A DNA stretch of 64,000 nt, from positions 744,001 to 808,000 of the forward strand of contig JBBELK010000485.1 in assembly GCA_037783545.1 (NCBI GenBank), in the 5' to 3' direction. Numbering within the stretch: position 1 is the first letter of the stretch; every line of letters begins with the position of its first letter. The notes beneath the pieces were generated by a model, which saw only the letters and a program-made list of their open reading frames with translations, made no database searches and was not told where the DNA came from. Origin of the DNA: Henricia sp. BOLD:AAB3569 (lineage: Eukaryota > Echinodermata > Asteroidea > Spinulosida > Echinasteridae). The translations under genes and the position numbers were made by a program. Below, piece by piece: positions 2,087-53,733 of the stretch.

Positions 2087-3423
2087 AATGGAAATGTTCG
2101 TCAACATTGTCTGATTCATTAGTTTAATATTTGCAGAAATAATTTGAATTTTTAGGTTGAATTCCATATCCGACCACTTATAAACGTCTTTATTCTGTAA
2201 ATGAAAAATAAACAATGCATGTTAGAACAAGTTTGATGATAAAAATGAGAAATAAAATTATGACATGTCTGATTTTAGGCCCCCAACCTGGATTTCCATT
2301 GTTATAAAACCATGTAAAATTTTAGTTTAGTTGTAAAAACCATGGTGTAAAAACTAAGAGAGGAATTTTCATGATTTTTTAATTTTTTCCCACTGCTGTC
2401 CAACATTGTCCAAGGAAATGTTCTTCAACATTGTCTGATTCATTAGTTCAATATTTGACTTCAAGTGCAGAAATAATTTGAATTTGTAGGTTGAATTCCA
2501 TATCCGACCACTATAAACGTCTTTATTTTGTATTAAATGAAAAATAAACAATGTATGTTAGAACAAGTTTGATGATAAAAATGAGAAATAACATTATGAC
2601 ATGTCTGATTTTAGGCCCCCAGCCTGGATTTCCATTGTTATAAAACCATGTAAAATTTTAGTTTAGTTGTAAAAACCATGGTGTAAAAACTAAGAGAGAG
2701 AAATTTTCATGATTTTTAGATTTTTTCCCACTGCTGTCCAACATTGTCCAAGGAAATGTTCGTCAACATTGTCTGATTCATTAGTTCAATATTTGACTTC
2801 AAGTGCAGAAATAATTTGAATTTGTAGGTTGAATTTCATATCCGACCACTATAAACGTCTTTATTTTGTATTAAATGAAAAATAAACAATGTATGTTAGA
2901 ACAAGTTTGATGATAAAAATGAGAAATAAAATTATGACATGTCTGATTTTAGGCCCCCAGCCTGGATTTCCATTGTTATAAAACCATGTAAAATTTTAGT
3001 TTAGTTGTAAAAACCATGGTGTAAAAACTAAGAGAGAGAAATTTTCATGATTTTTAGATTTTTTCCCACTGCTGTCCAACATTGTCCAAGGAAATGTTCG
3101 TCAACATTGTCTGATTCATTAGTTCAATATTTGACTTCAAGTGCAGAAATAATTTGAATTTGTAGGTTGAATTCCATATCCGACCACTATAAACGTCTTT
3201 ATTTTGTATTAAATGAAAAATAAACAATGTATGTTAGAACAAGTTTGATGATAAAAATGAGAAATAAAATTATGACATGTCTGATTTTAGGCCCCCAGCC
3301 TGGATTTCCATTGTTATAAAACCATGTAAAATTTTAGTTTAGTTGTAAAAACCATGGTGTAAAAACTAAGAGAGAAATTTTCATGATTTTTAGATTTTTT
3401 CCCACTGTTGTCCAACATTGTTC
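2087..3423 (+). repeat. tandem array, ~337-bp monomer, about four copies
   Basis: The word CCCACTG(C/T)TGTCCAACATTG recurs at about 2389, 2727, 3065 and 3401, giving spacings of 338, 338 and 336 bp. Between these anchors the sequence is nearly identical, and the first unit is partial and more diverged. Each monomer has AATAAA words but no meaningful ORF. This is a short satellite-like or minisatellite block; the near identity of the inner monomers suggests recent amplification or homogenisation. Confidence 0.92.
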
Positions 3424-3874
3424 AATGTTTTGGCCATGGCATTGGGTCTTAATCTACACGGACAGGCACCCGGCCGGGGACAGGAAGTCACCGGGCTGGG
3501 CTGGGCGCGCACTCGTACCGAGAAATGCCGCTTCTCGGCAGGCAATGCACCACGGTCACTGCACGAAAACGGCCCGATATCATTTTCGCGCGGCACGGTG
3601 AATCACTAGCACTGCACACGTACAAAATGTACACGGCAAGTTACCATCCCACATGACCTAATTATGGAGGCATCGCTTTCTCTTCTACGCAGGCGCCCAT
3701 AATTTTTGACCTTGCTGTTTAATTATTCATGTGCTTCCATTAAGGTTATCGAACTTTTTTCTTACGGAGTAATCAAGACCGAGTTTTCGAGTTCACGTTG
3801 TAAGTGTAGGTACGCCCTCTGGCGGCTAAAATGAACAATGTGGGGATCGCGAACTCGGTCTTGCATCAAGACAA
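3424..3874. other. no gene seen; GC-rich start
   Basis: About 180 bp of higher GC (3440-3620) with overlapping short ORFs on both strands, none recognised. The rest is AT-rich and featureless. Confidence 0.4.
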
Positions 3875-7673: not shown

Positions 7674-8782
7674 ATGGATCGAGCAACTTATTTGAGCCGG
7701 TTCACAGCCGAACATATCACCAGACTTTGTGAACTAAACCACATAGATGTAACCGCAGTAAAGACTAAACAAGAGCGAATAGTCTGTCTTTGCGATTTGC
7801 CTACCCTTGTAGAGGAAAACCCACCTCTTCCAGGTTTTGATTTGCTCAAGCTCGTGCAAGAACTTGAGTTCAGTCGCCAACATGAAACCGAAAAGTTATG
7901 CAAGACGCTTGCTAGCGCTGTCCTGGAGTCTGCCAAGACACCCCCTATTGTTAATGTGGGACCCAAGCTACCCGACTTCCACAAGTTAGGGCCAGACGAC
8001 GACATTTCTTGCTACTTAAATACTTTTGAACGTCTAGCCACAGCAGCTGGAAAACCGAAAGAAGAATGGCCACGTTTGTTGGAGCCATACTCAACAGACA
8101 AAGCGCAAAAGGCGTTTCACTCCCTAAATGAAGTTGACAAACAAGACTACGACAAAATCGTGGAAGTAATCCATAGGCGCTACTTTTTAACCCCAGAAGC
8201 GTACCGTCAGAAATTTAAGACGGACACTAAACAATCGGGAGAAACTTTCGAAGAATTCGCTCACCGCCTTGAGTGGAATTTTTACAAGTGGGTGAAACTG
8301 CCACAAGAAAAGTTAAAGGATTTTGATGTGAAACGAGCCTTCGGTCTTGTTTTAACGGACCAGTTCCTATCTGCTGTGGGAGATGAGCAACTTCGTCTCA
8401 AAATACGAGAGAAGACATTTCCAACACTCATGGCAGCTGCTAAAGCTGCTGATGAGATAGTTCTGCAACGTCGAACCAACAACCTCGAAGGATCGCACAA
8501 AACGCCGTTCAGACAAAGCCCCTCGGCATCCATGGCTAACCGAACCGAGGCAAACGAATTCCGATCAAGTAGTACGACGAGTCAATTTAGTGCCACTAAG
8601 CCTAAATCAGATATGACGCCCCATGGTAACCGCGGTCAGTTTGATATAACGCGACGCCGCTCGTACAACTTAGTCTGCTACCGCTGTAAGCAGATGGGCC
8701 ATCGTGAGGCAGACTGCCCAATGCCTCCACCACCTAAGCCGAAATCAGCGATAAATAACGCCGCCGAAGAGAGTCGCCCTAC
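7674..8782 (+). pseudogene. Gag polyprotein, first copy, split by a 12-kb transposon
   Basis: The frame opens at the ATG at 7674 about 200 bp after the LTR. The product resembles Ty3/gypsy Gag: a capsid-like helical region around residues 95-260 (LPDFHKLGPDDDISCYLNTF, SLNEVDKQDYDKI, SGETFEEFAHRLEWNFYKW) and one zinc knuckle CYRCKQMGHREADC near residue 345. It would form virus-like particles in the cytoplasm. Coding sequence is intact until codon 369, where the 12.26-kb element begins; retrotransposon sequence resumes at 21041. The uninterrupted counterpart is at 25273. Confidence 0.9.
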
Positions 8783-8860
8783 TAGGCCATAAGGTGTAAT
8801 AAAAAAGAAAGCTGAAAAATGAGTTTCGTTCCAACCCCCTTGGGTCTACTTTCTGAAGGC
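8783..8860 (+). repeat. left terminal inverted repeat of element 1
   Basis: Starts TAGGCCATAAGGTGT and has GTTTCGTTCCAAC near 8823 and GGGTCT near 8843. Each word has a counterpart in the right end in inverted order; the spacing between words differs, so the repeat is imperfect. Confidence 0.75.
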
Positions 8861-9536
8861 ATAAATATGCAAAGTAATGCATATTTATTGCTATGCTAAA
8901 AGTTCTCCACAAAATTTCCAGTCAAATTTGCATATTGGAAAAAGTTGAAAAAATGGTATTTCTGCACTACATGTCATATTTTTAGGATGTTGTTTAAGAG
9001 TGGTTACGAGTTAATTTTGCGCCCAGTTTAAATGATTTGTAGGACGGCGACGGAATGTAAGTGCTACTGCTGTGGGAAACCACTTTAACTTAATCAAGGC
9101 AACTCGTGAATATTTATGAGCATGTCACGCACGGATTCTGGGATAGTTTTATATGCAAATTGATGGTTAAAGAGGGAAAAAAAGAAAAAAGAAAAGATGT
9201 AAATTATACTCTGACCGCATTAAGACAGAGTAGGCTGATGTACCATCCTTCATAACAGCTGTTGAAGAAGAATGCACCACTCTGCTTGAATAGCCTACAT
9301 GTAAGTACCTGCCTGACGTGTGCTTCTCAGGCTATTTAGAAGACACGTAGATCCAGATGTCAGCTCATAGAAAACAATCCTAGAAGAAATCACTTGTATT
9401 TTGGAAGAAAACAATTTCCTTAACAATGAGTTTCTTGTTCACATCAGTGAAGTTTTGTTTTTATTCAGAGTTTTTGGGAAATGTGGCAACACAATTCTGT
9501 TACATTGTTATGCAATTGCTACTTTTCACCTTTAAT
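8861..9536. other. no gene seen inside element 1
   Basis: AT-rich, with an A/G-rich run near 9175-9197. Only short, unrecognised ORFs. Confidence 0.5.
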
Positions 9537-9722
9537 TAGGGATTAAAAGTGAGTTTGGACGTTTAGCCGTCTTAAACATACGTTTAAAAATGGATAGGGG
9601 CCTGGACGCCGATAATAGCCCCAAGCCGAAGGCCTTTAATCCTATTCATAAATACCTTTTTTTTTGTAAATCGATAAAACTCGCCAAAATTAGCCTGTCG
9701 TTGCATTCACTTTTTTCTTTCA
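9537..9722 (-). repeat. dispersed repeat, copy of the 660-825 family
   Basis: Left part repeats the GGATTAAAAGTGAGTTTGG end in forward orientation. Right part (9640-9722) is the reverse complement of the 660-740 segment (TTTACAAAAAAAAAGGTATTTATGAAT when read leftward, given here only as a location). The family thus has GGATTAAA words at both ends, as expected of a MITE. Confidence 0.55.
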
Positions 9723-10661
9723 TCTTGTTGTTCAAACTGCTGTAGCTGTGCGTGCGCATCAAGTCATTTATTCGATCGCGCGATCCAGGCGTGTTGTGAA
9801 GTCACAGTGCACATTTTGCTTTCGGGAGCGTGCAGTTTCTGTGCGCGTTTGGTTGTTCCATATGCTTACTAGGACGCGGGTAGAAACGAGAGCCAACCGG
9901 TCTTAATCACTGGTTATTATCATTCGTTTAAAACTGGCCCCGTGATGTGCTCTCAGCCAATGAGGATGCGTAAACTGTCTAAGGTATTTATGAATGTGAA
10001 GTTAAACGCTGTTCGGCTGACCACCACAGTAAGACACCCAGCTGAGTAAGACTTCTTTGTCAAGAAACATTTTAGCCAATGGCAAAACGAGTGGCATATC
10101 TGGCATTCTTCGTGCCCTGTGTGCCTTGGGTACTGATATAAATTACGTTACAACAAGAATAGCGGTCTTCAGGGTTTACATCGCTCACAAAATTTAGAAC
10201 TTTATAACTTATCAAGTTGAGGCCATTGGTAGCTCAAGCCTGCCCAGAGATCTTGCCTCAGATGTCTTGGTCTAGCATGAAACGGGACTTGGTATGTCCC
10301 GTTTCAGTGAATCCACATATGAGATACTTCTGCCATCTGAGGCAGTGCCTTGTGTGGGCTCCCAGAGAATAGTAGCAAGCTTGAGACAGCATTCAGATCT
10401 ACGTTCCTCATTTCATCACTGAAGGCTGATGACAACACCTTTTCATATTGAAGACAACTGACCGCGCCTATCCTCTTTGGATCTTGAGGTCTTTATCACT
10501 TGAGTGAATCCAAGCTCCAAAATACTTGATGTCCAGTTCAACCTTGAGAGCTGAGGAAAATCCTTCTCAAGATGTCGTTTCAATGTGTCAGCCCTTAATA
10601 AAGGAAAAAAATACAAGATTGTTGATACAAAATACGAGATTGTTGTGATGCTCCGACGGGA
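9723..10661. other. no gene seen inside element 1
   Basis: No supported ORF. One clean short hairpin occurs near 10277-10304 (GAAACGGGACTTGG, short spacer, then the inverse), set inside a wider CCTCAGATG/CATCTGAGG inverted pair at about 10256-10345. Confidence 0.5.
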
Positions 10662-10735
10662 TGCCCAGATAGCTCAGTTGGTAGAGCGGTTGGCCATGTA
10701 TGCCAAGGATCTGGGTTCGAATCCCAGTCGGGGCA
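10662..10735 (+). tRNA. tRNA-like sequence, probably a tRNA-derived SINE head or tRNA pseudogene
   Basis: A 74-nt cloverleaf can be drawn. The acceptor stem TGCCCAG pairs with CGGGGCA with one mismatch. D arm AGCTCAGTTGGTAGAGC, anticodon stem TTGGC/GCCAA and T arm CTGGGTTCGAATCCCAG (B box GGTTCGAATCC) are all good. The anticodon loop CATGTAT has A instead of the universal U at position 33, and no CCA or T-run terminator follows closely. I therefore favour a relic or SINE head. If functional, the anticodon would read TGT (threonine). Confidence 0.55.
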
Positions 10736-11204
10736 TTGCAATTTTCTCGTGTTTCTAAATTCATCTCGAAAAAAAAAACTACAGTAAGAAATCGGCTACA
10801 CTACAGTTTTGTGCAGAAAAAAATCACAAGTTTATTTAAAGGAGCGTGACCAGATCACATTTTTGACCCACAGGTTGTGAGATTTTTTTTTTGAAATCCG
10901 TATACTTTGAAAGATATTGTTTAAAAAATACCTATGGTAACTCATCTGGTTCAATAAAGCAGTGCACTAAACTACACAAAATTTTTCCATTCGCATCTCC
11001 AAATTTCTTGTTTTCAGTTCATGGAAGTACCGGTGTTTGGGGAGGTATTTTGTATGATTGTTAGGTTAAAACAAAATTCATTTTTTTGAAGACACTACTT
11101 TAATGTTCTCAATTTCGAAATGTGAGCATTGTGGCAAGTGGTATACTGAGGTCACAAGTGCGGAGAAAATGACAAATCCATGTTATTGTTGTCATTTTGT
11201 TATT
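10736..11204. other. no gene seen inside element 1
   Basis: AT-rich with A and T runs. CCACAGGTTGTGAG near 10869 resembles a CACAG..TGTGAG word near 17345, but no further structure is clear. Confidence 0.45.
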
Positions 11205-11655
11205 TCAATAAGTTTTTACCTTAGTAGTCAGGGAATATTTCCGAAATCTGGGAACTAAATCCTTACCAAATTATTTCTTCACCAAATTGTTATTCAAGGT
11301 GTCTGGTAACATCTCCTAAAAAGTTGAAATTCAACTCCCCTAGGAAAACCCGTGGCAGCTCTTTAAAGTTGAGGTACTAGGAACCATTAATCCGGAAATA
11401 TTGAAAAATTTAAATACTGCAGCAACCGTCTTGTGGGGGTCAAATGAGAGGTTTTTCATGATTCTGAATCAATTGTAAACATTTATTTTGCATCAGATCG
11501 ACTTTTGGATGACAAACTGTGATGCTTAGCTCTTTTTTTGATTAAACGTGTATATATATAGATATATATATATATATATATATACATACATAAACATACA
11601 TATGACTGCGCATTCAATTAAAAGGCAGATTTGTCCGTTTATTCATAGTCTGAGA
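11205..11655 (+). repeat. left ~450-bp internal inverted repeat flanking the PIN/CXC gene
   Basis: The stretch matches the reverse complement of 17395-17905 at high identity, for example CCTTACCAAATTATTTCTTC and GACTTTTGGATGACAAACTG. Long (TA)n tracts sit at corresponding places. It starts just outside the 3' end of the gene and includes its last codons. The outer limit is fuzzy and no target duplication was found. Confidence 0.88.
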
Positions 11656-14600
11656 TATCCCCAGACTCTGTATTGTCATGGACACAGTTCTTGCATGTAA
11701 TTCCTTTACAGTTCCCGCATGCTGAGATGCACTTTACACCTTCTTACAGCTGCACCGCCGGTTGCTGCAGTCTCCATTACAACTACAGCTCGTAAATCGG
11801 AGCAGCTCATCAGGAGCCATGGCGTCCAGGGTTGGAATAGGCTCATAACCGCGTACCCCGATCGTCCATCCATAGTCACTGGGATCCAGAGACATGCTCT
11901 GTAGCAGCAGCCAGTCACGAGCTTGAAGATAGGCGCGGAGAGAATGCTGCGCCGCAGCCCCCTCTGTTGGAGGAAGACTCTCTGGTTTGATAAGCCCGGC
12001 CGCTGCCTTCCGTGAGAACATGTTGTATCGAATTGTCCCCAATGTAGTACCTGGTGCGCGGTAGATGTACTGGAAAATAGCAATACCAGCCCGGATCACT
12101 TCGTCCTTATTCGCCCATACGTCAAGGAAGATATCTATGTTTTCGTTAATGCCACCTGCACAAAACCTGTCGAAAAGAGCAGTTTTCCCGTGCCCCCCGA
12201 TGGCAGATACCGTATCACAACCGGTGAAGGCGTGACAAAAGAGCAGGTTGCGCCTCTCTGTTTCAGAGAGGCCTTCTCTGATCCGCCCGACATCGTAAGA
12301 GCCCTTCGACGTGGTTACAAACATTGGATGGTCAATGCTTGAGCTATGGTGCACCAGCATTATCAGCACATCTGCGTCTTCTGCCTGCACCTGAAAATTT
12401 GACAAGATTAAAAACATAAGGAGAGCGTTCTAAACTAAAATAGTGAACTGAGTAGGCTTGCCAAGATTTTAAAACGCCCACACAAATTTTCACTGACCTC
12501 AACAGATCCCTGTTCAGCCAATGCCGCTCTTACAATAGAAGTGTCAGCATCATTATCACACTGCTCCACGGTGATCTGACGTCTTCGGAATGTTGAAGCG
12601 AGAAGATGGATGAGCTCGTTCTTGTTATGAAGGTTGTCCATGAACTTTGCCCTTGGTGTCAAATGCATCGTATCCGGTCGAATCTGTAGATCACAGCAGG
12701 AGCTCTTGGTACGCCGGATGTGGACGTGATCTTTTGGTGAGCTGTTATAGCCATCAAAGACCACAGTGGTCTTCTGGGAGCGACTGCCAAGAGACTGCAC
12801 GTATCTCAGGTAGCTGTTGGCAATCTCTTGCCATGTCTGGCCTTGTTCCCACTTCACCATGTAGAGAATCCACCCGCCATCAACAACCAGACTGGAACAA
12901 GGTTGGTCGGCGAGGTCGAGAGGATCGGTCAAAATCTTCAGGCTAGTCTTGCAAAAGCCTGCTTTGTTCGCCTTGTTCATATTCTGATCTCTGTTGCTGA
13001 ACAAGGACAACGGAAAGGTAGTCAGTTCGTACTCTAAGCTCGACTCGACTGTCATATCCCGCTGGGCGATAATTATCAGTCGGTTGAACAGCTTAACTGA
13101 GTTCAGATGAAGCTTCTTCTCATTGACCTTGGGCACCTTTCTAAGTGATGAGAGAGCCTGTACTTTGAACTTCACCTCCATGGTTGATGTCACTGGCTGT
13201 CCGTCTAGCTTTATCTGCATCTTTCTCCCTACTTCACCTGCTCTCTCGGCGTTGACTGCATCATCTGCAGTGCTCGTGAATCCTGTTGAGAAGGACACGA
13301 GCAACTGCTGGTCTCGGTCAAGGTCGAAGGGGTTGTTGTCCTCGAACCACTTGAGGACAATTCTAATCGCTTCAGCGTCTCTCTTCATCCGTGTTTCGGC
13401 AAGATCTTTGTGTAATGGGCCATGTTTCGGTACATTTTCCTCCATGCGCTGTTTTACGTCGGAGAAGTGGTTAAGAGTTTGCACCCAGCACTTGTGACCA
13501 GATACACTATTCCTCATCCTCCCTCTGCTCACCCCACCCTCCGACTTGGCCGCCTTCATCAGTCTCTGCTCGATACACATGTCACACCATGTGCCAGACC
13601 AGTCATGGCAAGAGTACCGGACTACGTGGTTTCCGTGGACAATGAACCTTTCGAAGGTCTCCTTGTATTGTGGCGACGATTCTAATTGCTTCATGAGCTG
13701 ACAATACAGCCGTGCGCCCTTGGCGTATTGATGATGCCCTGCAGCTGCAAATGTGTCCAGCATCCTGTTAACAATGCAGGACAGATGTCCGTTGTAGTCA
13801 GCAAGCCGTTCACTTCTGATGAAGATTTTGATGACATCAACCATGTAGTGGTACTGCACCCAGAGAGCAGGTGTCCTTCCTCCCTCTGCGAGTCTTTTGA
13901 AAGTTTCTTCAAACCTCTGTCTAAACACTGCAACTATTGGCGCTGTGTGTCTGGCTCCCAACTTCCCATCAGCTACATCCTCCATGAAGGTCCTCATTTC
14001 ATCAAGCTCTCCCTTAGTCAAGGCGTGTTTCATGACAAACTGGCAGATGGCTGCATCTATCAGGAGGTGAGCGCGGATCGCCTTGTCAAAACACCCTCCA
14101 GACAGGATGTGATCGGCAGTCGTACTCCCTGGATAGATCAGCTGGATCAACTCAAGGAGTCCAGAATCATCCATGATATTACCCAAGGACCCGAGGAAGG
14201 ACTTCAGCATGTGAAACCCACCCAACCTGAACAAACAAAAAAGTAAAACGAAACATTAAATATTTTATTCAATACCCAGACCTGCAAAAATCTGTGATAC
14301 CTAACTCATCTATTTAAATCTACCTTCGTCACCCAACCCTATAATAACAACCTCCTTACACCTTCCCTTACACACGTATATACACACACCTTGGAATAAT
14401 AGGGAGATTCGCCTGCGTTATGATGTCCACAGCCTTGAGCCAGATTGGGAGATCGAAGGTAACTATAGTGACTACGTCCCCAGAGAGCCGCATGCACTCT
14501 TTGAGAGTGGTAAAGATGGTCATGTGGTCATTGGGGTCACCTTCAATGATTGGGAGGAAGTCAATCTGCGTGTTCTCTTTCGAATCAGCTGCATGAATTT

Positions 14601-16904
14601 TCTTCATCCAGCCATTCCAGTTGGAGTGTTGGAAATCGGGATCTTGGGTTTTGATAACCCACCCTGCTGCCCAAAGGGTGTCCCCCGGAGAGAGAAGTGG
14701 CTGGTCCTGTTTCATGAAAGAAGAGAGATCAGCAATAGGTAGAAACGTAATAGTGTCTATCCCTGTCAGTTTCCTGTTTGTGAATGGAATAATCTTCACT
14801 TCAGATGCCTTCAAAATCTGAGCCTTGTCGGGCGCCTTCAACTTCACTCTGCTGACAACTGCTGTCTTCCGAACATCTGACGAGTTGGGTGCCGGGGAAG
14901 TGACTTTAATCAAGCCCATTGAATGAAAGGGAGTGTTGCCGTAAATAGAAACAATGTTCAAATCTATATTGTCTCCAACAAACTGAGTGACTGCACAATT
15001 ATTGGTACCCTTAACCTCCATGGAGACTACCTGTTCGTTGTTACTCTGTATATCATTTTCTCCGTTTAGTTTAGCACCCAGTAGATCCACAAGCTTAGCG
15101 TCAACCTCAGCTTCATCATCCGTCTGATTATCAACTTCTTCATTAATTGTACTAGGAGCGCCGGATGCCTCAGAGATGCCGACTCTGTTCCTCTCGTTCA
15201 GGAAGCAGTATTTATAGTTTTGTGTTTCTGCATAAGACTCGGTGTACCCCAACCGGTGGAACTTGTTGAGCATCCACTTTGACCCAAATCTGTGATCCAG
15301 CTGTATGGCAAGCCCCATCTGGTACGGCAATACACCCGAGTTAGGCCTATATGCCTTTATGAAGTTCTGCCCCCAAACGGCTACTCTTTCGTCTGTCTTC
15401 ACTATCGGTCTCAAGATCATTTGAAGGCTCTCAGGAACAAGTGCCAGCTGACTTGGAATATCGGTCATCTTGTGCGCAGTTGAGTATGACTTCGGATCCA
15501 GATCAATAATAGCGATGTCGTTGCAAATCAACTTAAGGGCAGTCTTTATGATCTGGGTCTTCTCGTCACCAAGCTGAACATTGGCATGATATTCTCGCAA
15601 AATGTTACTGGTTCTGTCTTTGAGGCACAGCACATCTGCCCTCCTCTCCTGTGACGTGAAATACAGTGTGTCACTATATTTCTCCTGGAGCTTCTTCTTC
15701 AGCCACTTCTTTGTGTATGCGAGGCTCTTATCTGGTGACTCATCGAACTGCTGTAGCTTTTCGTGGACCCCGTCAAGGGTCATCACCCCATGTTCCAGTT
15801 CCCGGTCCAGCCATTCGCATAGTTGCGAGAATACAACCGCTCGTTCCTCATCCACTATCCTTCCCAACTGGCATGACTGAGGAGAAAAGATTGTATAATT
15901 TAACACAGGGATTGATAAAAAGTACATTAAATATATATATATATTTATATTATATGAATGTGATGATTTAATTTTAACTCGCCTCACTAAATCGGAACCA
16001 TGCAATCACTCACATCTTTAGTCTTTAAATAGTGACCACCCGTCTCAAAAAGAACTTTGCAGCGCAAATGATAAAGGGTTTCCTCAGCGACCAAGTCATT
16101 AATCCCTTCAAGGCGGCCGATGACTTCAGTGCCCCAATTGTCCTTGCGATCAAGTGCTGTCTTCATCAAGCTTGTCTTCAGTTCATCGACGCTCAAATTA
16201 TCAGGAATCCGGTATCTTTTTCTTGCAATATCTGCAAGAGAGTCCAATACCACGCAAAATGTGAATAGCTAAAACGATAATTTTATTAATTCTTTACTGC
16301 CCATCATGATGTACATTGTCGGCTATTCGAGTGACATTCACGTTCAGCGTATAATTGTTACTTTTTTCACACTAACTTGGATGATTCGGGAAGAGCTGAG
16401 CAGGTTGGTTGCAAAGGATGCATACATTTTTGTACAGAAGTCGAACGGAACGTGAATCCGTAGAACTGCATGCACCAGTCCCAGAGAAAATACGTCGTCT
16501 CTTCGTCTGTGCTGACACTTTCTCTGCTTCTGCAGAACCTAAAATATATTAAATATATATTGATTTCAGAAATTATTTGGCTGGCATAAAATGTCTCTAC
16601 TGTTTAAAAAGCGTTAGTGAATCATTAGTCCTTGTTTAGTAAACAGGTAGCACTTACGAGTTGTCTCTAAGGTGACCTTGGCAGATTTGTTGTACAAATC
16701 ACATTTGCACTGGGAGTGGTAACTCAGTCTTCCGACATTCCATGCCTCCTTCATGCGATCCACAATTGAGGCATTTTCTATGTTTTCTGCATACGCCAAC
16801 AGAGTAGGGTATCCTTTAGGAGTTACCTGTGCCAGCTTTTGAGCTGGGGTCTCCTGGCCTTCACAGATGAAGCATTCGGGCGGAGGAATTACGTCTACGT
16901 CCAT
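11640..16904 (-). CDS. XPG/FEN1-like PIN nuclease with CXC cysteine cluster, Academ-like transposon protein
   Basis: Six exons with GT-AG introns fit one frame: 16904-16658, 16538-16377, 16231-16014, 15876-14390, 14226-12498 and 12390-11734, about 1499 residues. Exon 1 has CFIC...H-CKCDLY metal-binding spacing. Exon 2 has CILC. Exons 3-5 hold a long region conserved in an invertebrate family ([14 protein letters not shown]). From about residue 1150 a PIN fold is readable: VVDGG, VVFDGY with following HIRR, NDADTS, DADVLI and [10 protein letters not shown] before GGHGK, matching the acidic residues and GCD turn of FEN1/XPG nucleases. The C-terminus begins a CXC motif ([14 protein letters not shown]). 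A stop at 11734 precedes further CxxC codons in another frame to 11640, so a one-base deletion probably clipped it. Expected role: DNA cutting or end processing during transposition, in the nucleus. Which residues act as transposase is unknown. Confidence 0.8.
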
Positions 16905-17394
16905 AATGACAGACTGCGTACCCTATTCAATCTCATTAAAAACAACGAACATCCGTGTTACATATTCATAATAAAGTGTTGCTTGAGCCTCTGGGGTGAA
17001 CAAATGGGGCGCATTAAATAACGCAATACGTACGCCGTTATACTTTCAACGTTGAAGGTATACATGTCCGTATGCCATACATATTCCGCTTTTGAACGCG
17101 CCCTGCCTTGTTCGGTTAGATAAATTCAGTACCCCTATAAACTGAAGAATTAAATCCGGATTGGAAATTAAATGATTTTCTTGATTTTTTACCAGTGTAT
17201 TTTCTACATGAAACTGACATGTTATTAAACAAGAACGTGCGTCATCTTCCCCAGATATTGACGTTTTCGCATCTTTTTGGTGATTATTTTGATTTGGCGC
17301 AAAAATGAAATCAAAATTAGGTTGGATTCCGATTTAAAAAAACCTCACAGGCTGTGAGGGGTGGAGATCTCCAAACTGGAAATTGAATACAAGA
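16905..17394. other. upstream region of the PIN/CXC gene
   Basis: About 490 bp between the predicted start codon and the right internal inverted repeat; the promoter should be here. No clear TATA box was chosen. A short hairpin CCTCACAGGCTGTGAGG lies at 17343-17359. Confidence 0.4.
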
Positions 17395-17905
17395 TTTTTA
17401 AAATTCTGACTTTGAATAACTGGCAAAATCTACCTTTGAATTGATTGCGCAGTCATATGTATGTTTGAGGCATAAGTAGAGCACTCTCCGAAGTTGAATC
17501 GGTTTACAAACACGTATATATATATATGTATATATACGTTTAATAATAAAAAAAGAGCTAAGCATCAGTTTGTCATCCAAAAGTCGATCGGATGTAAAAT
17601 AAATGTTTACAAATGAGTCATAGTCACGAAAAACCTCTGTTTTGACCCCCACAAGACGGTTGCTGCAGTATTTAAATTGTTCAATATTTCCGGATTAATG
17701 GTTCCTAGTACCCCAACTTTAAAGAGCTGTCACGGGTTTTCCTAGGGGAGTTGAATTTCAACTTTTTAGAAAATGTTACTAGACACCTTGAATAACAATT
17801 TGGTGAAGAAATAATTTGGTAAGGATTTAGTTCCCAGATTTGCCAAATATCGGAAAATATTCCCTGACTATAGTACCTGATATTGGAAAAGTTATTTTAT
17901 TGATA
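17395..17905 (-). repeat. right ~500-bp internal inverted repeat flanking the PIN/CXC gene
   Basis: Reverse complement of 11205-11655, with about 60 extra bases near 17460-17510. The inner part contains a diverged inverse copy of the last codons of the gene, so the repeat includes coding sequence at its left partner. Confidence 0.88.
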
Positions 17906-18784
17906 TATAATCTGCCTGTGCACATTTAAAATTTCAATCCTGATGGGCAATCTGGAGGGCACTTGAACTTGGTTGAAAGGTTGGAGAAAACCATTTTTAA
18001 ACATTTTAAAAAGAATACGCCTATTGCAGAACAGGGATTCTAACCCCGGTGTTAAACCAGGGGCTCAGATTGCTATACATTGTGTTCAGTGAATAAAAAA
18101 AGGTGACAATTTGGTGAATACATGTAGGTGCATTTCACCCACATATTTAGTTTAAAAGCATACTGACTTACATGTACATGTACCTAATGCATGGCAGTTC
18201 AAGTCCCTCTTGTGTGCTAATTATCTTGGTCAAAAGTAGGGTAAGTTTGGACAACCTCAGGGCCTCTTCATTTCCAACTAATCGCTGATGAATAACTTTC
18301 TCGCAAAAAGACTTGAATTCCATCCTGGTGCTGCTCAATTGTGCTATCCAGCTTCACGTTGCAAGACCTTTCAAGCAGAAAACCACTTTACATTAGAATC
18401 AACACTGGTTTCACAAACGGGCATTGCAGGTAAATAGGATCTTATATTATTGCCAGCACAACTCTGCTTCTTTGCACTGAACCTTGCATTTTCACTGATA
18501 AGGCCAAGAAAAAATATAGCTGTGTTTCCTATTACCCGCCACAACCTAGAAAGTCATGCAGAGCCTAGATATTTTATTCAAAAAATCAATAAAAAGTAAA
18601 ACTTGTTGTGCCAACCTGGAACCTAATCTTTCTGTAGATCGACTTTGTTTTTGTTTATCCCCCTCAAAGCTGAAAAAGTTCCAACTTACCCAACCTAAAT
18701 ATTTTTTTTATGTAATAGGAAACACAAGTATTTTTTTCTTGGCCTGAAGGCAAGTTGAAGTGTTATGAAGGGTCCTACTACATG
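17906..18784. other. no gene seen inside element 1
   Basis: AT-rich; only short ORFs. No repeat structure recognised. Confidence 0.5.
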
Positions 18785-19224
18785 TAATTACCATCAACTG
18801 CCATCAACGGCTGCCACCAGCCATCTTTTAATGATAAATTATCCAATTATGGCATGACAAAGAATTTTCGCATTTAAGATGTAAATTCTGGCTTAAAATG
18901 GAAAAATAATCTAATGGCGCAGTGGCAGCCATATTACTTTTGGACGATGTGGGTCGAACCATTAATGGACAAGGGGTGTGCTTTCTTTTGTGTGCGTGTA
19001 TCTAACAAAACTCCTAACACAATATTTGCATTAAAATACCCCTATAAATGCGAAGTGGTATTGTCTCATACCCGGTACATCATATTCAAAATGGTCACCG
19101 ATTTGGCTACAATTACCTTCTTTTTCTGGCGGCATGGCCGAGAACAGCCTGTGAAGGCCTTAGGACGCCCGATAAATGCTGGGGACGACCGATGACGGCC
19201 GATGACGGCAGTTGACGGTAATTA
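18785..19224. mobile_element. ~440-bp MITE
   Basis: TAATTACCATCAACTGCCAT at 18785 is mirrored, with one or two changes, at 19200-19224 (GGCAGTTGACGGTAATTA). No ORF of note inside. Target duplication not clear. Confidence 0.6.
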
Positions 19225-19339
19225 GTATGACCTGTTATAGATAGATGAATTGAAAAAGGGATCAGACCTGGGTACACTCTTATTATTGATGTGCTGAAAC
19301 TTGCCAAAAATAAAAAAAATAAAAACAAAAACATGCTGC

Positions 19340-19437
19340 AAAATTAGTGACCTCGTTTCTTACCCTATTAAAGGCTCTCCTCAAGTCTCAGCCTTTGAGA
19401 AAGACTTGTGGGGTAAGAATGTGAGGGCACTAATTTT
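19340..19437. repeat. ~98-bp hairpin element
   Basis: AAAATTAGTGACCTCGTTTC on the left mirrors GTGAGGGCACTAATTTT on the right, with inner CTTACCC/GGGTAAG pairing. Imperfect arms of about 27 bp. Confidence 0.6.
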
Positions 19438-19699
19438 AAAGCAAATTTATATTCCACATCCTGATGGTTGTTAAGTAGTTTGCCAAAGTTTGTGTTTTAG
19501 ATGTTGAAATTGAAACAAACACAATGTACACTACCCGGTACATGTAGTAGTACAAGTACTAGTACTAGTAGGCCTATCGATGCATGGAGCTTCAAACAAA
19601 AACATTGAAATTTAGTTGCAATTTCCAAGTTGACAATCCTATGGAATAGAACATTTTTTTTTCAAAATTTTTTAAAATATAAAATCATGGAAATTTACA

Positions 19700-19914
19700 A
19701 AACCCAGAGGTCGGAGGTGGTTGGAGGTACCCGGAGGTAGATTTTTTTCTAACGTGTAGTTGGTGCGTTGACAGTGGCCCTGGAGCTACGCGGTATTAAA
19801 ATAACATGCAAGCCGGAGGTAGGTTGAAACAGCTGGCTTAGCAGTAGGCCTACTACATGGTCACAAAAAATTCTACCTCCGGGTTACCTCTGACCTCCGG
19901 CTACCTCCGGGTTT
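19700..19914. mobile_element. ~215-bp fold-back MITE
   Basis: Arms of about 40 bp rich in GGAGGT/ACCTCC: AAACCCAGAGGTCGGAGGTG at 19700 mirrors ACCTCCGGGTTT at the right end. No coding capacity. Confidence 0.65.
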
Positions 19915-20967
19915 CAACCACACCCTTAAAATCATGACATTTTCTCGCTTAATTTTACTGGCCTACATTTTTATCAACAAACTAACATTTTTCCCAATTT
20001 TGTTTTATTTTTTATAACTCAGCCTATCCGCAACAAATAGGCCATAGGCTCCTACTGCTTTGATAAGTTAACGAAAAAGGCAAATCCTTGGTGTTCGTGC
20101 ATTTTATAACGATAATTAATCTCTAGTTTATTTACTTACCAAAGGCAAAGCATGAAGAATTTATAAAATGTTATAGGCCTTGTTTGCTTACCTCCATCGT
20201 TGGTTTCAGCCTTTCTCAGTTTGTCCCTTATTCGTTTGCCTTAGTCTGGACGTTGATCAAAATTCAGATTTTTTACAGATGATCATGAATCATTGAATGA
20301 TGCACTTCGCAGGCTAGTGTACGTGTACATGCTAGTGGACAATGGTGGACCCGCTGCCAAAAGCGACCCGCGCGAAGAAGACGCTGCCCGAAGCCGAGGT
20401 CTTTTAGGAGACGAATGTGCTTCTGCTGGTTATGGTGCACTTTTTTCTTTGAATCGTTTTTCGGCAGCCCTGGGCCGGATGATCATGAGCCGTTTGCATG
20501 GTTTGGAATCGAGGAAGGCCTACCGGCGATGGCGAGCTTCCGCAAACAAAACCAAGCATGCCAAGTCAGAGACCTAAACTCATGAACTGTCCAACTTGTT
20601 GGATTCTCTGTCGTTATCGAATGTAGGCCTAAATGGATCAAACATTTCGGAAAACTCACGTCGGTCGTGTCGGTACGTTGACGCCATTTTCACACTGCAC
20701 AACATGTACGTACGTACGTACACACGGCAACAGTTGCCAAGTTGCCTAACCTTCGACCTGCCGAAGCCCGGATTATGATTGGGCAATCTGCATCACGTGG
20801 TGCCGATGCGCAAATATTTGTAAAGCGCCATCGCATAACAACTATAAACGGTGCTCCGTCGCTGTCTACTATAGTGCCGATTTTGATCGTTAAAATTCTC
20901 AAATTTGACTGATGCTATTTTGGAGAACTTTTCGGAACAATGTTCTTCGGTTATTACTCTGTCTACA
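19915..20967. other. mostly no gene; possible exon-like ORFs near 20290-20790
   Basis: A 94-residue ORF (20293-20577, +) and a 35-residue minus frame starting at an ATG in good context near 20685 (MASTYRHDRREFSEMFDPF) stand out, in GC-richer DNA with a (GTAC)n stretch at 20706. Neither was recognised. They could be exons of an accessory transposon gene or chance. Confidence 0.3.
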
Positions 20968-21037
20968 GCACCGAGTTCTCCTAGACCCGTCGAGTTGGAA
21001 CGAAACAAGAAGTAAACACTTCACACCGTACGGCCTA
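20968..21037 (-). repeat. right terminal inverted repeat of element 1
   Basis: Read inward it begins TAGGCCGTACGGTGT, then GTTTCGTTCCAAC and GGGTCT, matching the left end word by word. Confidence 0.75.
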
Positions 21038-21040
21038 TAC

Positions 21041-25272: not shown

Positions 25273-26477
25273 ATGGATCGAGCAACTTATTTGAGCCGGT
25301 TCACAGCCGAACATATCACCAGACTTTGTGAACTAAACCACATAGATGTAACCGCAGTAAAGACTAAACAAGAGCGAATAGTCTGTCTTTGCGATTTGCC
25401 TACCCTTGTAGAGGAAAACCCACCTCTTCCAGGTTTTGATTTGCTCAAGCTCGTGCAAGAACTTGAGTTCAGTCGCCAACATGAAACCGAAAAGTTATGC
25501 AAGACGCTTGCTAGCGCTGTCCTGGAGTCTGCCAAGACACCCCCTATTGTTAATGTGGGACCCAAGCTACCCGACTTCCACAAGTTAGGGCCAGACGACG
25601 ACATTTCTTGCTACTTAAATACTTTTGAACGTCTAGCCACAGCAGCTGGAAAACCGAAAGAAGAATGGCCACGTTTGTTGGAGCCATACTCAACAGACAA
25701 AGCGCAAAAGGCGTTTCACTCCCTAAATGAAGTTGACAAACAAGACTACGACAAAATCGTGGAAGTAATCCATAGGCGCTACTTTTTAACCCCAGAAGCG
25801 TACCGTCAGAAATTTAAGACGGACACTAAACAATCGGGAGAAACCTTCGAAGAATTCGCTCACCGCCTTGAGTGGAATTTTTACAAGTGGGTGAAACTGC
25901 CACAAGAAAAGTTAAAGGATTTTGATGTGAAACGAGCCTTCGGTCTTGTTTTAACGGACCAGTTCCTATCTGCTGTGGGAGATGAGCAACTTCGTCTCAA
26001 AATACGAGAGAAGACATTTCCAACACTCATGGCAGCTGCTAAAGCTGCTGATGAGATAGTTCTGCAACGTCGAACCAACAACCTCGAAGGATCGCACAAA
26101 ACGCCGTTCAGACAAAGCCCCTCAGCATCCATGGCTAACCGAACCGAGGCAAACGAATTCCGATCAAGTAGTACGACGAGTCAATTTAGTGCCACTAAGC
26201 CTAAATCAGATATGACGCCCCATGGTAACCGCGGTCAGTTTGATATAACGCGACGCCGCTCGTACAACTTAGTCTGCTACCGCTGTAAGCAGATGGGCCA
26301 TCGTGAGGCAGACTGCCCAATGCCTCCACCACCTAAGCCGAAATCAGCGATAAATAACGCCGCCGAAGAGAGTCGCCCTACGCCCAAACCCCGCCCCCCT
26401 GAACCCGTCACGCGCTCCACTAACGAGGTGCGCATACTACAATCTTCGAACGTCGCAACGCATATCGACACAGAAAC
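25273..26477 (+). pseudogene. Gag polyprotein, second copy, right side truncated
   Basis: Intact Gag frame from the ATG with capsid-like region and zinc knuckle CYRCKQMGHREADC, reading through the place where copy one is interrupted (26379-26381 is the single TAC). It continues into the Gag-protease linker (NEVRILQSSNVATHI) and then breaks at 26478, where unrelated inverted-repeat sequence begins before the DTGS motif. The visible ORF to 26559 has a non-native tail. No downstream pol genes are present. Confidence 0.88.
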
Positions 26478-41063: not shown

Positions 41064-41673
41064 ATGGAGAGTGGACACAAGCCAACTGGATATTCTGGAT
41101 GGAACAAAAAACGACTCACCAAGTTTATTAGCGACGAAAATCTACCGGCTGTTATTGACGTCGGTGAGAAAATTGGAACGAGAAGACAACTAATAAAAAC
41201 GGTCAAGCGATATGCGGATGAGTTCAAAAATATTAGAGGCCAAACTAAACAGTCTGCTATCGCTAATCGGCAAGTATAACATAAATAAGGTTGAAACCAC
41301 GGGCAAAAATAACAAGTATACAAAGGGTGATTACTTAGAGTCGATAAGAAATTATTGGCGGCCTATATACAGCGGGGTCATCAAGCCAATATATTTTAGG
41401 GGAATAGTGCCTCAACGCTTTGCCAACGTAATTCAAAATTACGAAATAAAAATTGGTCGCGAGAATTTAGATTACGTCAATTTCTTCAAATACAACAGAA
41501 ATACAATTTTCGGTAAAATGCTTGAAATGATACGGACCAAACCAAATTACAATTTTCAGTTGGGATTACGTGTAACTCTAAAAAAATAAACGCGCAGGGG
41601 GAAATTGAAGAAAAAGAAATCACATTCCGCACGAGCAATGAACTAGTTCTACAACAGCGACATTGGCAAGGCG
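41064..41673 (+). pseudogene. putative N-terminal part of the Polinton polymerase, frameshifted
   Basis: Three overlapping frames cover this stretch. First, from an ATG at 41064 (ESGHKPTGYSGWNKKRLTKF), ending at 41279; then 41212-41589 (GIVPQRFANVIQNYEIKIGR); then a third frame leading into the polymerase ORF. One break is at a 7-A run near 41583. Order, strand and continuity suggest one ancestral N-terminal region with at least three single-base breaks, but the first piece could also be a separate small gene. No domain recognised. Confidence 0.5.
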
Positions 41674-44600
41674 TTGAATAGTACTATAGAAAATCTAAAG
41701 GCAAAACTAGAAGAATTTCAGACGGAAAAGAGCGGGTGGTCTGTGTTTAAGCTAAACACGCTGTACATAAACTTTACGGAGTACAAACCTATTAGAGGAA
41801 GCTCTTACATTAAATTACCGGATTACATAAAATATAAAAAGGCCGTGGTCAACGTTAAAAACGATGACGATAAATGTATAAGATGGGCATTAAGAGCCCC
41901 ACTTGGGAAATTTAAAGACAAGTTTTTAGATGACGTTACTAAGAAATTAAAGCGTAGAGTTAATCGTGATCGTATAACAATTTATAAAGAAGAAGACGGG
42001 TTAAATTTTAAAGGAATAACTTTTCCAACCCCAATAAATCAAATCCCTAAGATTGAAAAACAAAACGACTTAAATATTAACGTGTTTGGTTACGACGAAA
42101 AGAATGGAATATACCCTCTCTACATTACAGAAAGTGAGTCGGGTGAAGTCATTAACCTGATGTTATATTCGGAGGATGATAACAACCACTACTGCTGGAT
42201 CAAAAATATAACCAAATTAATTTTTAGCGAGAACAAGCACAAGGAAAAGAAATACGTTTGCGTCCGCTTCTGCGGCATTTTAGCAGTCAAATGATATTAA
42301 ACAAACACAAAATTGATTGCTTCGGCGTTAAACAAAAGGCTAGCAGAATAGTCATGCCATCTACGGAATTGGATAGATACAATCGTAGACGAGACGTTAT
42401 AAAATTTAAAAACACTCAGCATAAAATGCCAACTCCGTTTGTAATTTACGCAGACTTTGAATCTCTCATCGTGCCCCACAAAGAAAAAGCGGGCAACGCT
42501 ACCATTAAAACTCAAAAACACGTGGCCTTCGGGTGGTCTTACGTAGTAGTCAGACACGACGGGCACCTACTTAGTAAACAATATTATAGGGGCGAAAACG
42601 CGGTTGAAAAATTGCTTGCAAACTTACAGAGAGAGGAATCTGCCATAAACAAACTTTTCGAAAAGGAAAATGCACAAAAAAACATGATAAATACACGAAA
42701 GAAGACGAGGCTAAATTTAACGCTTCAAAAAATTGTTGGATTTGCGAGTACCCAATCAGGCAACTAGACCCATCAAAGTGTACGTGTGAGTTACCAAAGT
42801 CAAAGAAAATAAAACGGGATGATAAAGATGTCTATTGGTGTGAAAATTGTCAAAAGGAAACTCAGTCGTTCTCAAAGGTGAGAGACCACTGTCATATAAC
42901 CGGTAACTTTAGGGGCGCTGCTCACAACGCTTGTAATTTGAAACTCTCCATAAAACCAAAAATAACTAAAATCCCAGTTTTTGTTCATAATTTGGAAAAT
43001 TACGACGCACATTTACTCATGCAGGGAATTTCTGAATTTAGCGGTGACATTTTTTGCATACCAAAGACTTCCGAAAAATACATTTCGTTTTCTCTAGGGC
43101 AACTGAGATTTGTCGACTCGTTTCACTTTTTAGCTAGCTCGCTAGATAAGCTTAGTAAAATATGCCCCAGCGAGCAATTTAACTTGCTCAAAACTCTAAC
43201 TCATGACGAAGAAAAATTCAAGTTGATCTTGAAAAAGGGTGTTTATCCTTACGAGTACATTGGACTCTTTCGACAAATTTAAAGAGACTAAATTACCGCC
43301 AAAATCAAAATTCTATAGCAAGTTAAACAACGGTAACGTATCCGACGAAGACTACCTGCACGCTAAAATAGCTTGGCGGGAATTTGAAATCTCTAATATG
43401 GGAGAATATCACGACCTGTACGTACAGACTGACACGTTATTGTTGGCGGACATTTTCCAAAACTTTAGACAGACTTGCCTAGAGCACTACGGGTTAGACC
43501 CAGCCAATTACTTTACATCTCCGGGCCTCAGCTGGGACGCCCTGCTCAAACATTCAAAGGCGCAACTAGAATTACTGACGGATTACGACATGTATCTTTT
43601 TGTAGAGCGCGGAATAAGGGGCGGAATTTCTAGCGTCGGGGCTAAGAGACACGTCAGAGCAAACAACAAGTACTTGCAAGATTACGACGAAACGAAACCG
43701 AGCACGTTCATACAATATTTGGACGCCAATAACTTGTACGGGTGGGCAATGTCTCAACCGCTGCCAGTCGGTGACTTTAAATGGCTTACCGACAGAAAGA
43801 TTAAATTCTTTACGGAAGACGTACTACAAATATTGGAAGCTCAATCTGAGAGGGGATACATTTTGGAAGTGGACTTGGAATATAAAAAAAAACTACACGA
43901 CGAACACAACGACTATCCTCTAGCTCCAGAAAACTTGAACGTCCCCCAAGAGTGGTTTTCGGATTACCAACGACGACTAATCGAGAAAAACGAGCTATCA
44001 CCACCCGTCGTCGACAAATTAACGTGCACTCTGAAAAATAGAACTAAATACGTCGTTCACTATCAGACTCTAAAACTGTATTTCAACCTCGGATTAAAGT
44101 TGACCAAGATTCACAGAATTTTATCGTTCAAGCAAACTGCCTGGATGAAGTCGTACATTGACAAAAACACTCAGCTACGCAAGGAATCAAAATCGGATTT
44201 TGAAAAAGACTTTTTTAAGCTGATGAATAATTCAGTCTTTGGCAAGACGATGGAAAATGTGCGTAATCGTCTAAACTCTGAGCTAGTCAGATTAGAAGAC
44301 GAAAAGAAGCTTTCTAAAATGTGCTCGTTACCGAATTATGTATCTACTACCGTCTTTGAAGACTGCAAATTGGCCATGGTCAACCTGTACAGAACAAAGA
44401 CGGTACCGGACAAGCCAATCTACTGCGGCATGACTATCCTCGAAAACGTTAATGTACGACTTTTATTACAATCATTTGAAGCGCAAGTACAAAGATAACG
44501 CGAGCCTAGTGTACACAGACACCGACAGCCTTCTCTTGGAAATTAAAACTGACGACGTGTACGCCGACATGGCCAAGTATAAGCACTTTTCAAATTATCC

Positions 44601-45009
44601 GGAGGATCACGAGCTGTACGACAACTCTAATAAAAAGGTCACAGGCAAATTTAAAGACGAGGTCGCGGGCCAACAAATTATAGAGGCTGTATGCATCAGA
44701 CCGAAACTGTACGCCATTCAGACAGAGCGAGACGTCATCAAAAAGGCAAAAGGCATTAAAAAGGTGGTGGTCAGAGACAACCTGACGCTAGACTTGTACA
44801 AACAATCCCTATTTAAATCTACTCTGGTTTACGAAAAACAAAACATTTTAAAGAGCGAAAAGCATCAAATTTACTCAATCACTCAGAATAAGTTAGCAAT
44901 TTCGCCTCTGGATACAAAGAGATTTCTTTTAAACGACGGCATAAATACCCAAGCGTACGGACACTACTCTACAGAGGGTGGCAGCTCTGTGCCCGCGGGC
45001 ACTACTTGA
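41674..45009 (+). pseudogene. polB: protein-primed family B DNA polymerase (pPolB), frameshifted
   Basis: Five overlapping frames in order (41674-42294, 42258-42767, about 42700-43282, 43239-44498, 44452-45009) encode successive parts of a Polinton polymerase. Readable motifs are Exo I VIYADFESL, a CWIC/CENC zinc-binding stretch, Exo II HNLENYDAH, Exo III YHDLYVQTD, Pol A YLDANNLYG, Pol B LMNNSVFGK and Pol C YTDTDSL. It would replicate the element from a terminal protein primer. Four single-base indels separate the frames (near 42265, 42690 in an A run, 43265 and 44455), so the copy cannot encode an intact enzyme as written. Its 3' end overlaps the integrase 3' end by 46 bp on the opposite strand. 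Confidence 0.93.
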
Positions 45010-45959
45010 AGCTCTTGTCGCACAAAAGACCTCTTTGGAGCGGGGTCGTTTAAATAATACAAGATTGGTTGACCGCGCGTGCGCGTGTACTCTTTGATCG
45101 TAAACGTTTGAAGAGACCATATGGGATCAGTCGCTCGCCTCTTTTCACCACCCTCTGACTCACCCGGCTGATACATATACCTGACTAAATCTTTACTAAT
45201 TTTTAGCGGCGTCTCTTTAACGCCGGGTGCTGCGGGCGTTTGCTCGACTCGCTTCAATTTAATGGCGTCTATAGGCTTCTTACCGATCAAACGCGTCACC
45301 TCATCATTCATAGCTTTGATTACGTCGGGGAGTCTCTTTACCCACTCTGTATTTCTAGACTTTGGGTCAAGCATTTCTTCCGAGTATTGATGACCGAATA
45401 ATACCTCGGCCAATGACCTGTTGAATCTCTCTACTATACCCTGGGCTCGATGTAGACCGGGTATGCCGCGTTGTACTATAGCACCATTTTTATTAATGAG
45501 CGCGCTAAAACTACCCATAAACTTTCTACCCGGATCTACTTTAATAATCTTTGGCCACGTCAAAGGCGATCGCTTGTAAATTTTGTTAATGGCGTCGGTA
45601 ACTTGATCCGTAGTCTTAGAAGTTAGCGGCTCGGCTTCTTTATATCTACTCGCGACGTCCACGACCGTCAACGCGTATTTAAAGGTTTTAGACCCAACTT
45701 TGTCGTAGGGCAAAAACAACAGGTCGGCTTGATGCATGACGTTTGGTACGCCGTAACTAGAATTTAAAGAAGTAGGCCTAGGTATATACGTCGGGGGTGG
45801 CAGATAAATTTGCCACATTGCTTGTTTGCGCAACCAATTTCTAGATTCTGCTTCACTCGTCTTTGCTTTTTTAGCTAAATTCTTAACCGCACCATCACCC
45901 TTCTAGTACCCCCTTGGCCCGTAATACAACTTGGCAAATTTCTTGTCGTTCATAGTCAT
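44964..45959 (-). pseudogene. int: Polinton integrase (retroviral DDE type), one in-frame stop
   Basis: Start at the ATG 45959-45957; a TAG at 45905-45903 interrupts the N-terminal region (KLYYGPRGY then stop), where related proteins have a residue. After that the frame is open for more than 310 residues. The N-terminal linker WLRKQAMWQIYLPPP precedes an rve core with the acids in QADLLFL, VDPGRKFMG and QGIVERFNRSLAE. The C-terminal part (IKEYTRTRGQPILYYLND) is chromodomain-like. It inserts the element with a short staggered cut. Convergent with the polymerase. A functional form could start at an internal ATG after the stop, lacking the N-terminal zinc-binding part. Confidence 0.92.
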
Positions 45960-45971
45960 TTATTTAATTTA

Positions 45972-46392
45972 GATATATTTGTAAACCAAAAATGTCAGTA
46001 AACCCAGACCGCCCACGATGAATACTAGCTCTCTGTCTTTTACGTGTTCTGGCTTGGCGTAAAAGTCGGACAATCTAGGCTCGCGAGTTAACCCTACCGG
46101 CATTTTTTTTATCTTCGCCGGTGAGCTGGTTGTACTCGTACAGTGATTCGTCGACGTCGCTAAAAGTACGCTGAGCGTGAGCTTCTTTTTTAAGCCGGTC
46201 GTTTAAGTAATCCAAATATTTTAAGCGGCTCTTTTCAAATTGCTGCTTAGCGGTAGTAAGTTGTTCTAACGCCAAGTCGTGTCGTTTAAGTTCTTCGCCG
46301 TCTTTCCCGAGTTTAGAAAACAAGAAATTTGACCCCGCAAATGCAACCGCATTCAATACGGCTCCACCAACCATCATCGCTATCGACACCAT
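45972..46392 (-). pseudogene. small conserved Polinton membrane protein, frameshifted in an A8 run
   Basis: The frame from 46392 begins MVSIAMMVGGAVLNAVAFAG, a hydrophobic glycine-rich segment, then a charged helix (EQLTTAKQQFEKSRLKYLDY, DVDESLYEYNQLTG). At an 8-A run near 46105 the frame changes, and the continuation (REPRLSDFYAKPEHVKDREL) ends in a second membrane segment FIVGGLGLLTFLVYKYI. Polintons of other invertebrates have one protein with this order, so I read it as one gene of about 140 residues broken by one indel. The function is unknown; the topology suggests a virion or host-membrane protein. Confidence 0.65.
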
Positions 46393-46452
46393 TTTAATTA
46401 AAGCGCTAAAAATTTAAATATAAAATTATCATTATTATATAGTAAAATAAAG
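46393..46452. promoter_or_regulatory. bidirectional promoter between divergent Polinton genes
   Basis: A 60-bp AT-only-like spacer (TTAAATATAAAATTATCATT) separates the start codons of the membrane-protein gene (-) and the capsid gene (+). It contains TATA-type words on both strands. The assignment rests on position and composition. Confidence 0.55.
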
Positions 46453-47860: not shown

Positions 47861-47907
47861 ATAATTACGTTTTTCGTTGTAAATAACTGCGTTTGGTATT
47901 ATAGATC

Positions 47908-48555: not shown

Positions 48556-48630
48556 TTTAATTATATATTAAGAGTTGGTTGACCACCCAGATTATATTAC
48601 CACCAAACGTAACGAATTCGGTTTAAAAAA

Positions 48631-48876: not shown

Positions 48877-48942
48877 CCTCTAATGCAATCTAAAATTGTT
48901 ATATTTTAATTTAATAAATTTAAGCTGTATTAACAAATAAGA

Positions 48943-50877: not shown

Positions 50878-50887
50878 AAACGTGACG

Positions 50888-53671: not shown

Positions 53672-53733
53672 TGATATAAAATTGATATTGTCCGTCGATA
53701 TTAGCAATTAAAAATGTATACATTATTAATAAA

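Follow-up and report, generated by a model that had tools for sequence, protein, structure and literature searches.

The insertion at 8783-21037

We analysed 64,000 nucleotides from the sea star Henricia sp. BOLD:AAB3569 (the window; C485:744001-808000, contig JBBELK010000485.1 of assembly GCA_037783545.1), which contain two copies of a Gag-Pol retrotransposon, the first of them split by a 12.26-kb insertion (8783-21037) carrying a transposase gene with an XPG-like nuclease and a CXC cysteine cluster. The first copy breaks off at 8782 and continues from 21038, and the second is uninterrupted, with the TAC of the empty target site at 26379-26381 in the retrotransposon alignment. The left flank is 99.18% identical to the second copy over 2,929 bp, the match ending exactly at 8782; the right flank, resuming at 21038, matches it over 106 bp only (98.1%). 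Comparison within the window places TAC on each flank of the insertion (8780-8782 and 21038-21040), which opens with TAGGCC and closes with GGCCTA. In the alignment of copies, these ends belong to imperfect terminal inverted repeats, TAGGCCATAAGGTGT at 8783-8797 and, on the reverse strand, TAGGCCGTACGGTGT at 21023-21037, with more matching motifs inward of them at both ends. The open reading frame that is cut is Gag-like, having a zinc knuckle that scores above the Pfam cut-off and a stretch resembling SCAN that does not reach it, and downstream of the insertion are weak, sub-threshold Pfam matches to aspartyl proteases. The insertion is real, and the original prediction, made from the window's letters, was right in describing a retrotransposon split within Gag, with both ends exact to the base, a 3-bp TAC duplication and TAGGCC-type imperfect inverted repeats.

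That prediction also took the insertion for one transposon whose TAGGCC ends go with the XPG/CXC gene, and here the result is different. Sequence comparison divides the insertion into an outer Academ-type element (5,603 bp outside 11222-17873) and an inner one of 6,646 bp (11225-17870, reverse strand), very probably nested in the first. The gene sits in the inner element, which has TAGTCAGGG ends of its own, and the gene of the outer family is a different one.

The outer family was traced in its own genome (740.7 Mb searched) with the left 300 bases of the outer element as query, which gave at least 14 places including the window; the 13 others were compared. An exact 3-bp duplication is present in 10/11 independent two-ended insertions, the window included. 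The 3-bp flank pairs of the sister insertions are identical in 9 of 10 cases (AAG, TAA, ATA, AAT, GGA, CTT, GTA, CTA, AAA), whereas 3-mers at mirrored offsets elsewhere in the flanks match in 11 of 550. The count leaves aside C274 (flanks the same as those of C438), C245 (right end not intact) and C835 (no right end within the 16 kb examined). A check of TAGGCC-ended copies across the genome had been proposed, and the ends with their 3-bp duplication held in 10 of the 11 insertions. One family member, at C518:578687-578825, is a 139-bp derivative that keeps both ends and has an AAA duplication, suggesting that little beyond the ends is needed for mobility.

Two groups of outer copies can be told apart. 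C466, C495, C438, C274, C120 and C62 are 95.9-97.3% identical to the outer sequence of the window over the longest piece and 92-95% in other pieces; C423, C154, C32 and C245 form a subfamily at 81-94% in aligned pieces, with one short C245 piece at 98.6%. A block of ~157 bp with a tRNA-Thr-like sequence (10662-10736, forward strand) is retained by six non-autonomous outer copies but does not occur in the four longer ones, and is possibly a tRNA-derived short interspersed nuclear element. The longer two-ended copies C423, C154 and C32 measure 10,282-10,287 bp. Over 10,287 bp, 4 mismatches and one gap base separate C423 from C154 (99.95%), C32 is 99.6% identical, and all three have an unbroken frame of 1,235 codons for the protein P0111, three of its 3,705 nt being variable; in C245, an ungapped reading of the main frame meets one stop and an offset. 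Judged by the unbroken main frame alone, C423, C154 and C32 are presumably autonomous. The outer element of the window (5.6 kb) is a non-autonomous deletion derivative: it has kept remains of upstream exons and lost the main exon, and the matches of the outer protein P0111 inside the insertion are solely those to the inner gene, at 24-30% identity in the aligned parts.

The evidence for the inner element comes from the same sister copies. Ten of the 13 span its site (C297, C835 and C518 do not cover it), and the block 11222-17873 is absent from all ten, the site reading ...TTTTTACCTACCTGAT... in C466, C495, C438, C274, C120 and C62 and ...TTTTTTACCCACCTGAT... in C423, C154, C32 and C245. The block is edged by TAG duplications (11222-11224 and 17871-17873, by sequence comparison) and by terminal inverted repeats of ~340 bp (11225-11570, forward; 17515-17870, reverse), which are 92-94% identical in the self-comparison of the window. 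A genome search with the inner left end listed 41 matches, 40 of 511 first-look candidates having been scored; identity is 93-97%, the exceptions being the window itself and a single short row (88%). The left end was placed at 11225 because 25 of the 41 listed matches begin at the fourth query base. Flanks were read at six two-ended places, with C231 and C242 representing one site and C611 and C230 another, and no outer-family sequence was found in them. A matching 3-bp duplication is seen at 4/5 independent two-ended places, the window included: TAA at C521, TTG at C832 and TTT at C231/C242, where four T match and C242 has a decayed right end. We also considered duplications of 1 bp or 4 bp but did not adopt them, as the other inner places fit 3 bp, leaving TAGT over in the window. 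This extra TAGT at the insertion site (window 11221-17874) is absent from all ten sisters spanning it, and may be a small earlier change or the footprint of an earlier visit. The element at C611 shares just the terminal ~345 bp with the inner element of the window (95.7%) and has a different interior; it is a non-coding inner-type element (C611:744660-748690) with a foldback structure, its inverted arms of ~1.3 kb lying in two pieces (97-98% and 90%).

Could the insertion nevertheless be a single autonomous element of 12.26 kb, and the shorter copies internal deletions of it? The gene does sit between both TAGGCC ends, and internal deletion is a common origin of non-autonomous elements. However, the block has no counterpart in any of the ten sisters that span the site, it is bordered by inverted repeats and a 3-bp duplication, the longer outer copies hold a different gene at a different place, and the inner ends are found elsewhere with no outer sequence in the flanks read. 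We reject this explanation, which is very improbable given the sisters without the block and the longer copies with another gene. An assembly artefact, that is, a false join of contigs, deserves still less credence: such repeats are prone to misassembly, but nine further independent loci have the outer ends with exact 3-bp duplications, and three further independent sites have the inner ends with 3-bp flanks that match. This recurrence means that both families are real; it does not by itself prove that the nest in the window is correctly joined. We are left, with high confidence, with one Academ-type transposon nested inside another, each family having its own gene.

Encoded proteins and a proposed mechanism

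The inner transposase gene (11639-16904, reverse strand) was modelled with a chimera of two database relatives as guide, which gives six exons (16904-16658, 16538-16377, 16231-16014, 15867-14390, 14226-12498 and 12390 to ~11639), five GT-AG introns and ~1,500 codons. By sequence comparison, exon 5 (12498-14226) encodes GGFH and the conserved E (IEQ) of a proposed D-D-E (DDE) domain, followed by the beginning of the XPG-like nuclease; exon 6, as far as the frame break (11740-12390), encodes the second half of the nuclease and the first part of the CXC cluster. Owing to a frameshift at ~11740, the frame stops within this cluster, where the relatives continue. The original prediction of a large gene of ~1500 residues with FEN1/XPG motifs and a CXC cluster is therefore borne out for the nuclease, the CXC cluster and the length, spread over six exons, but the gene belongs to the inner element, and with its frame broken the copy is not the near-intact one it was thought to be. 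The splice model also showed an 'intron' at 15768-15649, together with a stop and breaks of frame at ~15258-15152; these were discarded as due to the reference P0032, which diverges there, the frame of the window being open.

Pfam and NCBIfam gave nothing above cut-off on the inner exons (weak rows: ING, HapK, Phage_holin_4_1), a viral_contigs search with the inner protein P0002 gave no relative, and against PDB sequences P0002 had a single chance match. For outer-type proteins, the Pfam family DUF6589 is below the cut-off and TCR at or below it. Structure comparison of relatives' chains, together with residue alignment, shows that the FEN1/EXO1/XPG fold and its acidic active site are present, as the original prediction had it. 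For the inner type, the fold was matched via the structure of the database relative P0008; for the outer type, the nuclease is encoded in the transposase chain of the longer copies C423, C154 and C32, and the structure is that of a 60% identical relative. Active-site residues follow FEN1 numbering; D86, D181 and D233 also occur in the titles of matched entries. Upstream of the nuclease, the residues of the proposed DDE domain are conserved and its topology is fitting, with no confident fold match; the set D66/D229/E471 is about as conserved as the nuclease residues. In the structure searches with long chains, nuclease rows filled the lists, and DDE families absent from those lists may still be relatives.

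How might such a protein work? Each encoded protein would recognise its own inverted repeats, perhaps via N-terminal cysteine-rich modules and the CXC cluster. An RNase H-like D-D-E domain would excise the element and attach its 3' ends to the target strands at positions 3 bp apart, while the FEN1/EXO1-like nuclease of the same chain would cut or trim the 5' strand or flap at the ends, and host repair would fill the 3-bp gaps. In Tn7, the 3' and the 5' strands are the task of different nucleases, TnsB and TnsA respectively, and the D-D-E domain and the nuclease could divide the labour as TnsB and TnsA do. We put this division, with the DDE domain for 3' ends and the FEN1/EXO1-like domain for 5' strands, forward as a tentative proposal. 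Nearly as likely, though also doubtful, is that the nuclease works only in post-insertion repair, removing flaps or resolving intermediates, and is dispensable for excision; 5' flaps and recessed ends are substrates of FEN1/EXO1 relatives, according to the titles of matched entries. Alternatively, the FEN1/EXO1-like domain could itself be the strand-cutting transposase and the N-terminal D-D-E region structural or dead. The nuclease is indeed the sole part with a confident fold match, but D66/D229/E471 are conserved about as well as the nuclease residues, and a fixed short duplication is the established outcome of strand transfer by DDE transposases, making this alternative improbable.

Relatives of the inner protein and other sequences

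A protein search with P0002 returned 107 proteins, 37 of which were aligned (18 with named hosts, 19 without). Identity to the window protein is 83.6% for Seison (a rotifer), 85.3% for Priapulus, 83.0% for the fish Aldrovandia, 79.2% for the coral Paramuricea, 75.1% for the sponge Dysidea and 76.7% for Myxine; other named fishes range from 60.9 to 79.9%, and the figures for another Myxine protein and for a wasp protein are 53.8% and 30.0%. In the genome of the window itself (77 rows listed, 72 of 249 candidates scored), the window is the sole full match to P0002 among the matches listed, the next by score being at 52% and no other row above 61%. These identities across phyla point to horizontal transfer, as far as protein sequences can tell. 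Vertical inheritance under strong constraint, or contamination, is the unlikely alternative for the cross-phylum identity of 75-85%. In its favour, the comparison uses protein sequences alone, many tree nodes are poorly supported, and most fish sequences group together, which weighs against horizontal transfer. Against it, the rotifer and priapulid proteins are 89% (490 columns) and 90% (333 columns) identical to that of Aldrovandia, above some fish-fish pairs such as Xyrichtys-Dissostichus (76%); the next best match by score in the own genome, among those listed, is at 52%; and the relatives' sequences differ from one another, which speaks against a single contaminant. Horizontal transfer of an Academ element was reportedly, by its title, the subject of Zhang et al. 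2016, a paper cited in PMC5791352. A passage in PMC8594854 records the gain of an Academ element in Daphnia lines.

A broader proposal would be that one protein joins two unrelated metal nucleases, DDE for 3' strands and a complete FEN1/EXO1-type site for 5' strands, in Tn7-like double cutting in animals, and that horizontal transfer has carried the inner clade between at least five animal phyla (Rotifera, Priapulida, Chordata, Cnidaria, Porifera) and also to the host of the window, in which a large population of non-coding elements has the same ends as the one coding copy. Taken as a whole, this remains speculative, and we consider it rather unlikely.

The genome holds several long-frame Academ-like families: further frames of 1,466-1,633 codons, 25-29% identical to P0002, are present on C702, C720, C832, C346, C155, C409, C40, C71, C480, C1037, C638 and C542, one C155 row having an internal stop. 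Fragments of a ~50% identical gene lie side by side on opposite strands as inverted pairs (C422, C319:94273-95835, C485:240891-242803, C93:1650565-1652246, C315, C1261, C30, C34, C1512), and could lead to hairpin RNA and silencing. On C47:111159-1147700, one broken gene fragment occurs eight times at a spacing of ~100-330 kb, suggesting a large tandem duplication or an assembly feature. The window also contains a gene cluster at 41197-55851, with an integrase core (rve, E 3e-9; 44964-45902, reverse strand) and weak DNA polymerase B and endonuclease VII matches (42608-43282); we presume that this cluster is Polinton/Maverick-like, and our polymerase and capsid assignments for neighbouring frames are guesses. 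At 2090-3425, a ~338-bp unit is repeated in direct tandem, its copies being 83-98% alike.

Classification and comparison with known systems

The nuclease of AcademX elements is of XPG type, and an XPG-type nuclease is present in the transposase chain in the families of both elements of the window. A passage in PMC10045372 describes AcademX as having 3 or 4 bp duplications and a nuclease, and AcademH, in the same superfamily, as having 9 or 10 bp duplications and a helicase. The outer element agrees with the former in its exact 3-bp duplications (10/11), as does the inner one (4/5 places read), and Pfam scans that covered the inner exons, P0111, P0008, P0032 and P0095, with the upstream exons of the outer gene lying outside the scan, revealed no helicase family. 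Among the relatives of P0002 listed, none bears an Academ name. The Academ membership of the original prediction thus survives in the 3-bp duplication and the FEN1/XPG-like nuclease, but the ends and the gene come from two different families.

In full, our favoured reading is that an AcademX-like outer element entered the retrotransposon and an inner Academ-type element lies within the outer one, each with a 3-bp duplication, and, more tentatively, that they move by the proposed mechanism; overall we regard this as probable. Several observations count against it. The outer insertion C297 has no matching 3-bp duplication (CCT/CAG), and neither has the inner site C611/C230 (TGT vs TCT). The TAG duplication in the window implies a target, ACCTTAGTACCT, four bases longer than that of the ten sisters (ACCTACCT or ACCCACCT). 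The DDE fold lacks confirmation by a structure match: outside the nuclease, Foldseek gave weak rows only, to Transib (E 0.65) and RAG1 (E 1.7-2.4), amid unrelated proteins. Finally, the assignment to AcademX, which both elements fit on the features tested, is by described features and not by the sequence of named Academ entries.

In the open-licence literature searched, most subscription papers being outside it, no paper contains both 'Academ' and 'XPG' as whole words, and so no test of Academ chemistry was found there. In this genome, the ends are defined to the base, an empty site occurs naturally, duplications follow a 3-bp rule, and the main frame is unbroken in three long copies, of which two are 4 mismatches apart in 10.3 kb; this opens the role of a flap-type nuclease in cut-and-paste transposition to assay. 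The nearly identical outer-kind copies with an unbroken main gene could be used to test the movement of these poorly studied elements. The locus also carries a caution: a precise empty site delimits what was inserted but does not show that it is one element.

Compared with known systems, the elements resemble AcademX in combining a 3-bp duplication with a nuclease in the protein; what is particular to this genome is the two-family nest and the presence of young, nearly identical copies. They differ from AcademH in having a nuclease and 3 bp instead of a helicase and 9-10 bp. The nucleases are 8-19% identical to the FEN1/EXO1/XPG family over the aligned part and, unlike those enzymes, sit behind a transposase-like domain and before CXC. 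The CXC cysteine pattern is like that of the LIN54 CXC domain (E 0.0025 for P0111), but here forms the C-terminal part of a transposon protein. With Tn7, the elements would share separate nucleases for 3' and 5' strands; there, however, TnsA and TnsB are separate proteins, TnsA has another nuclease fold, and the duplication is 5 bp.

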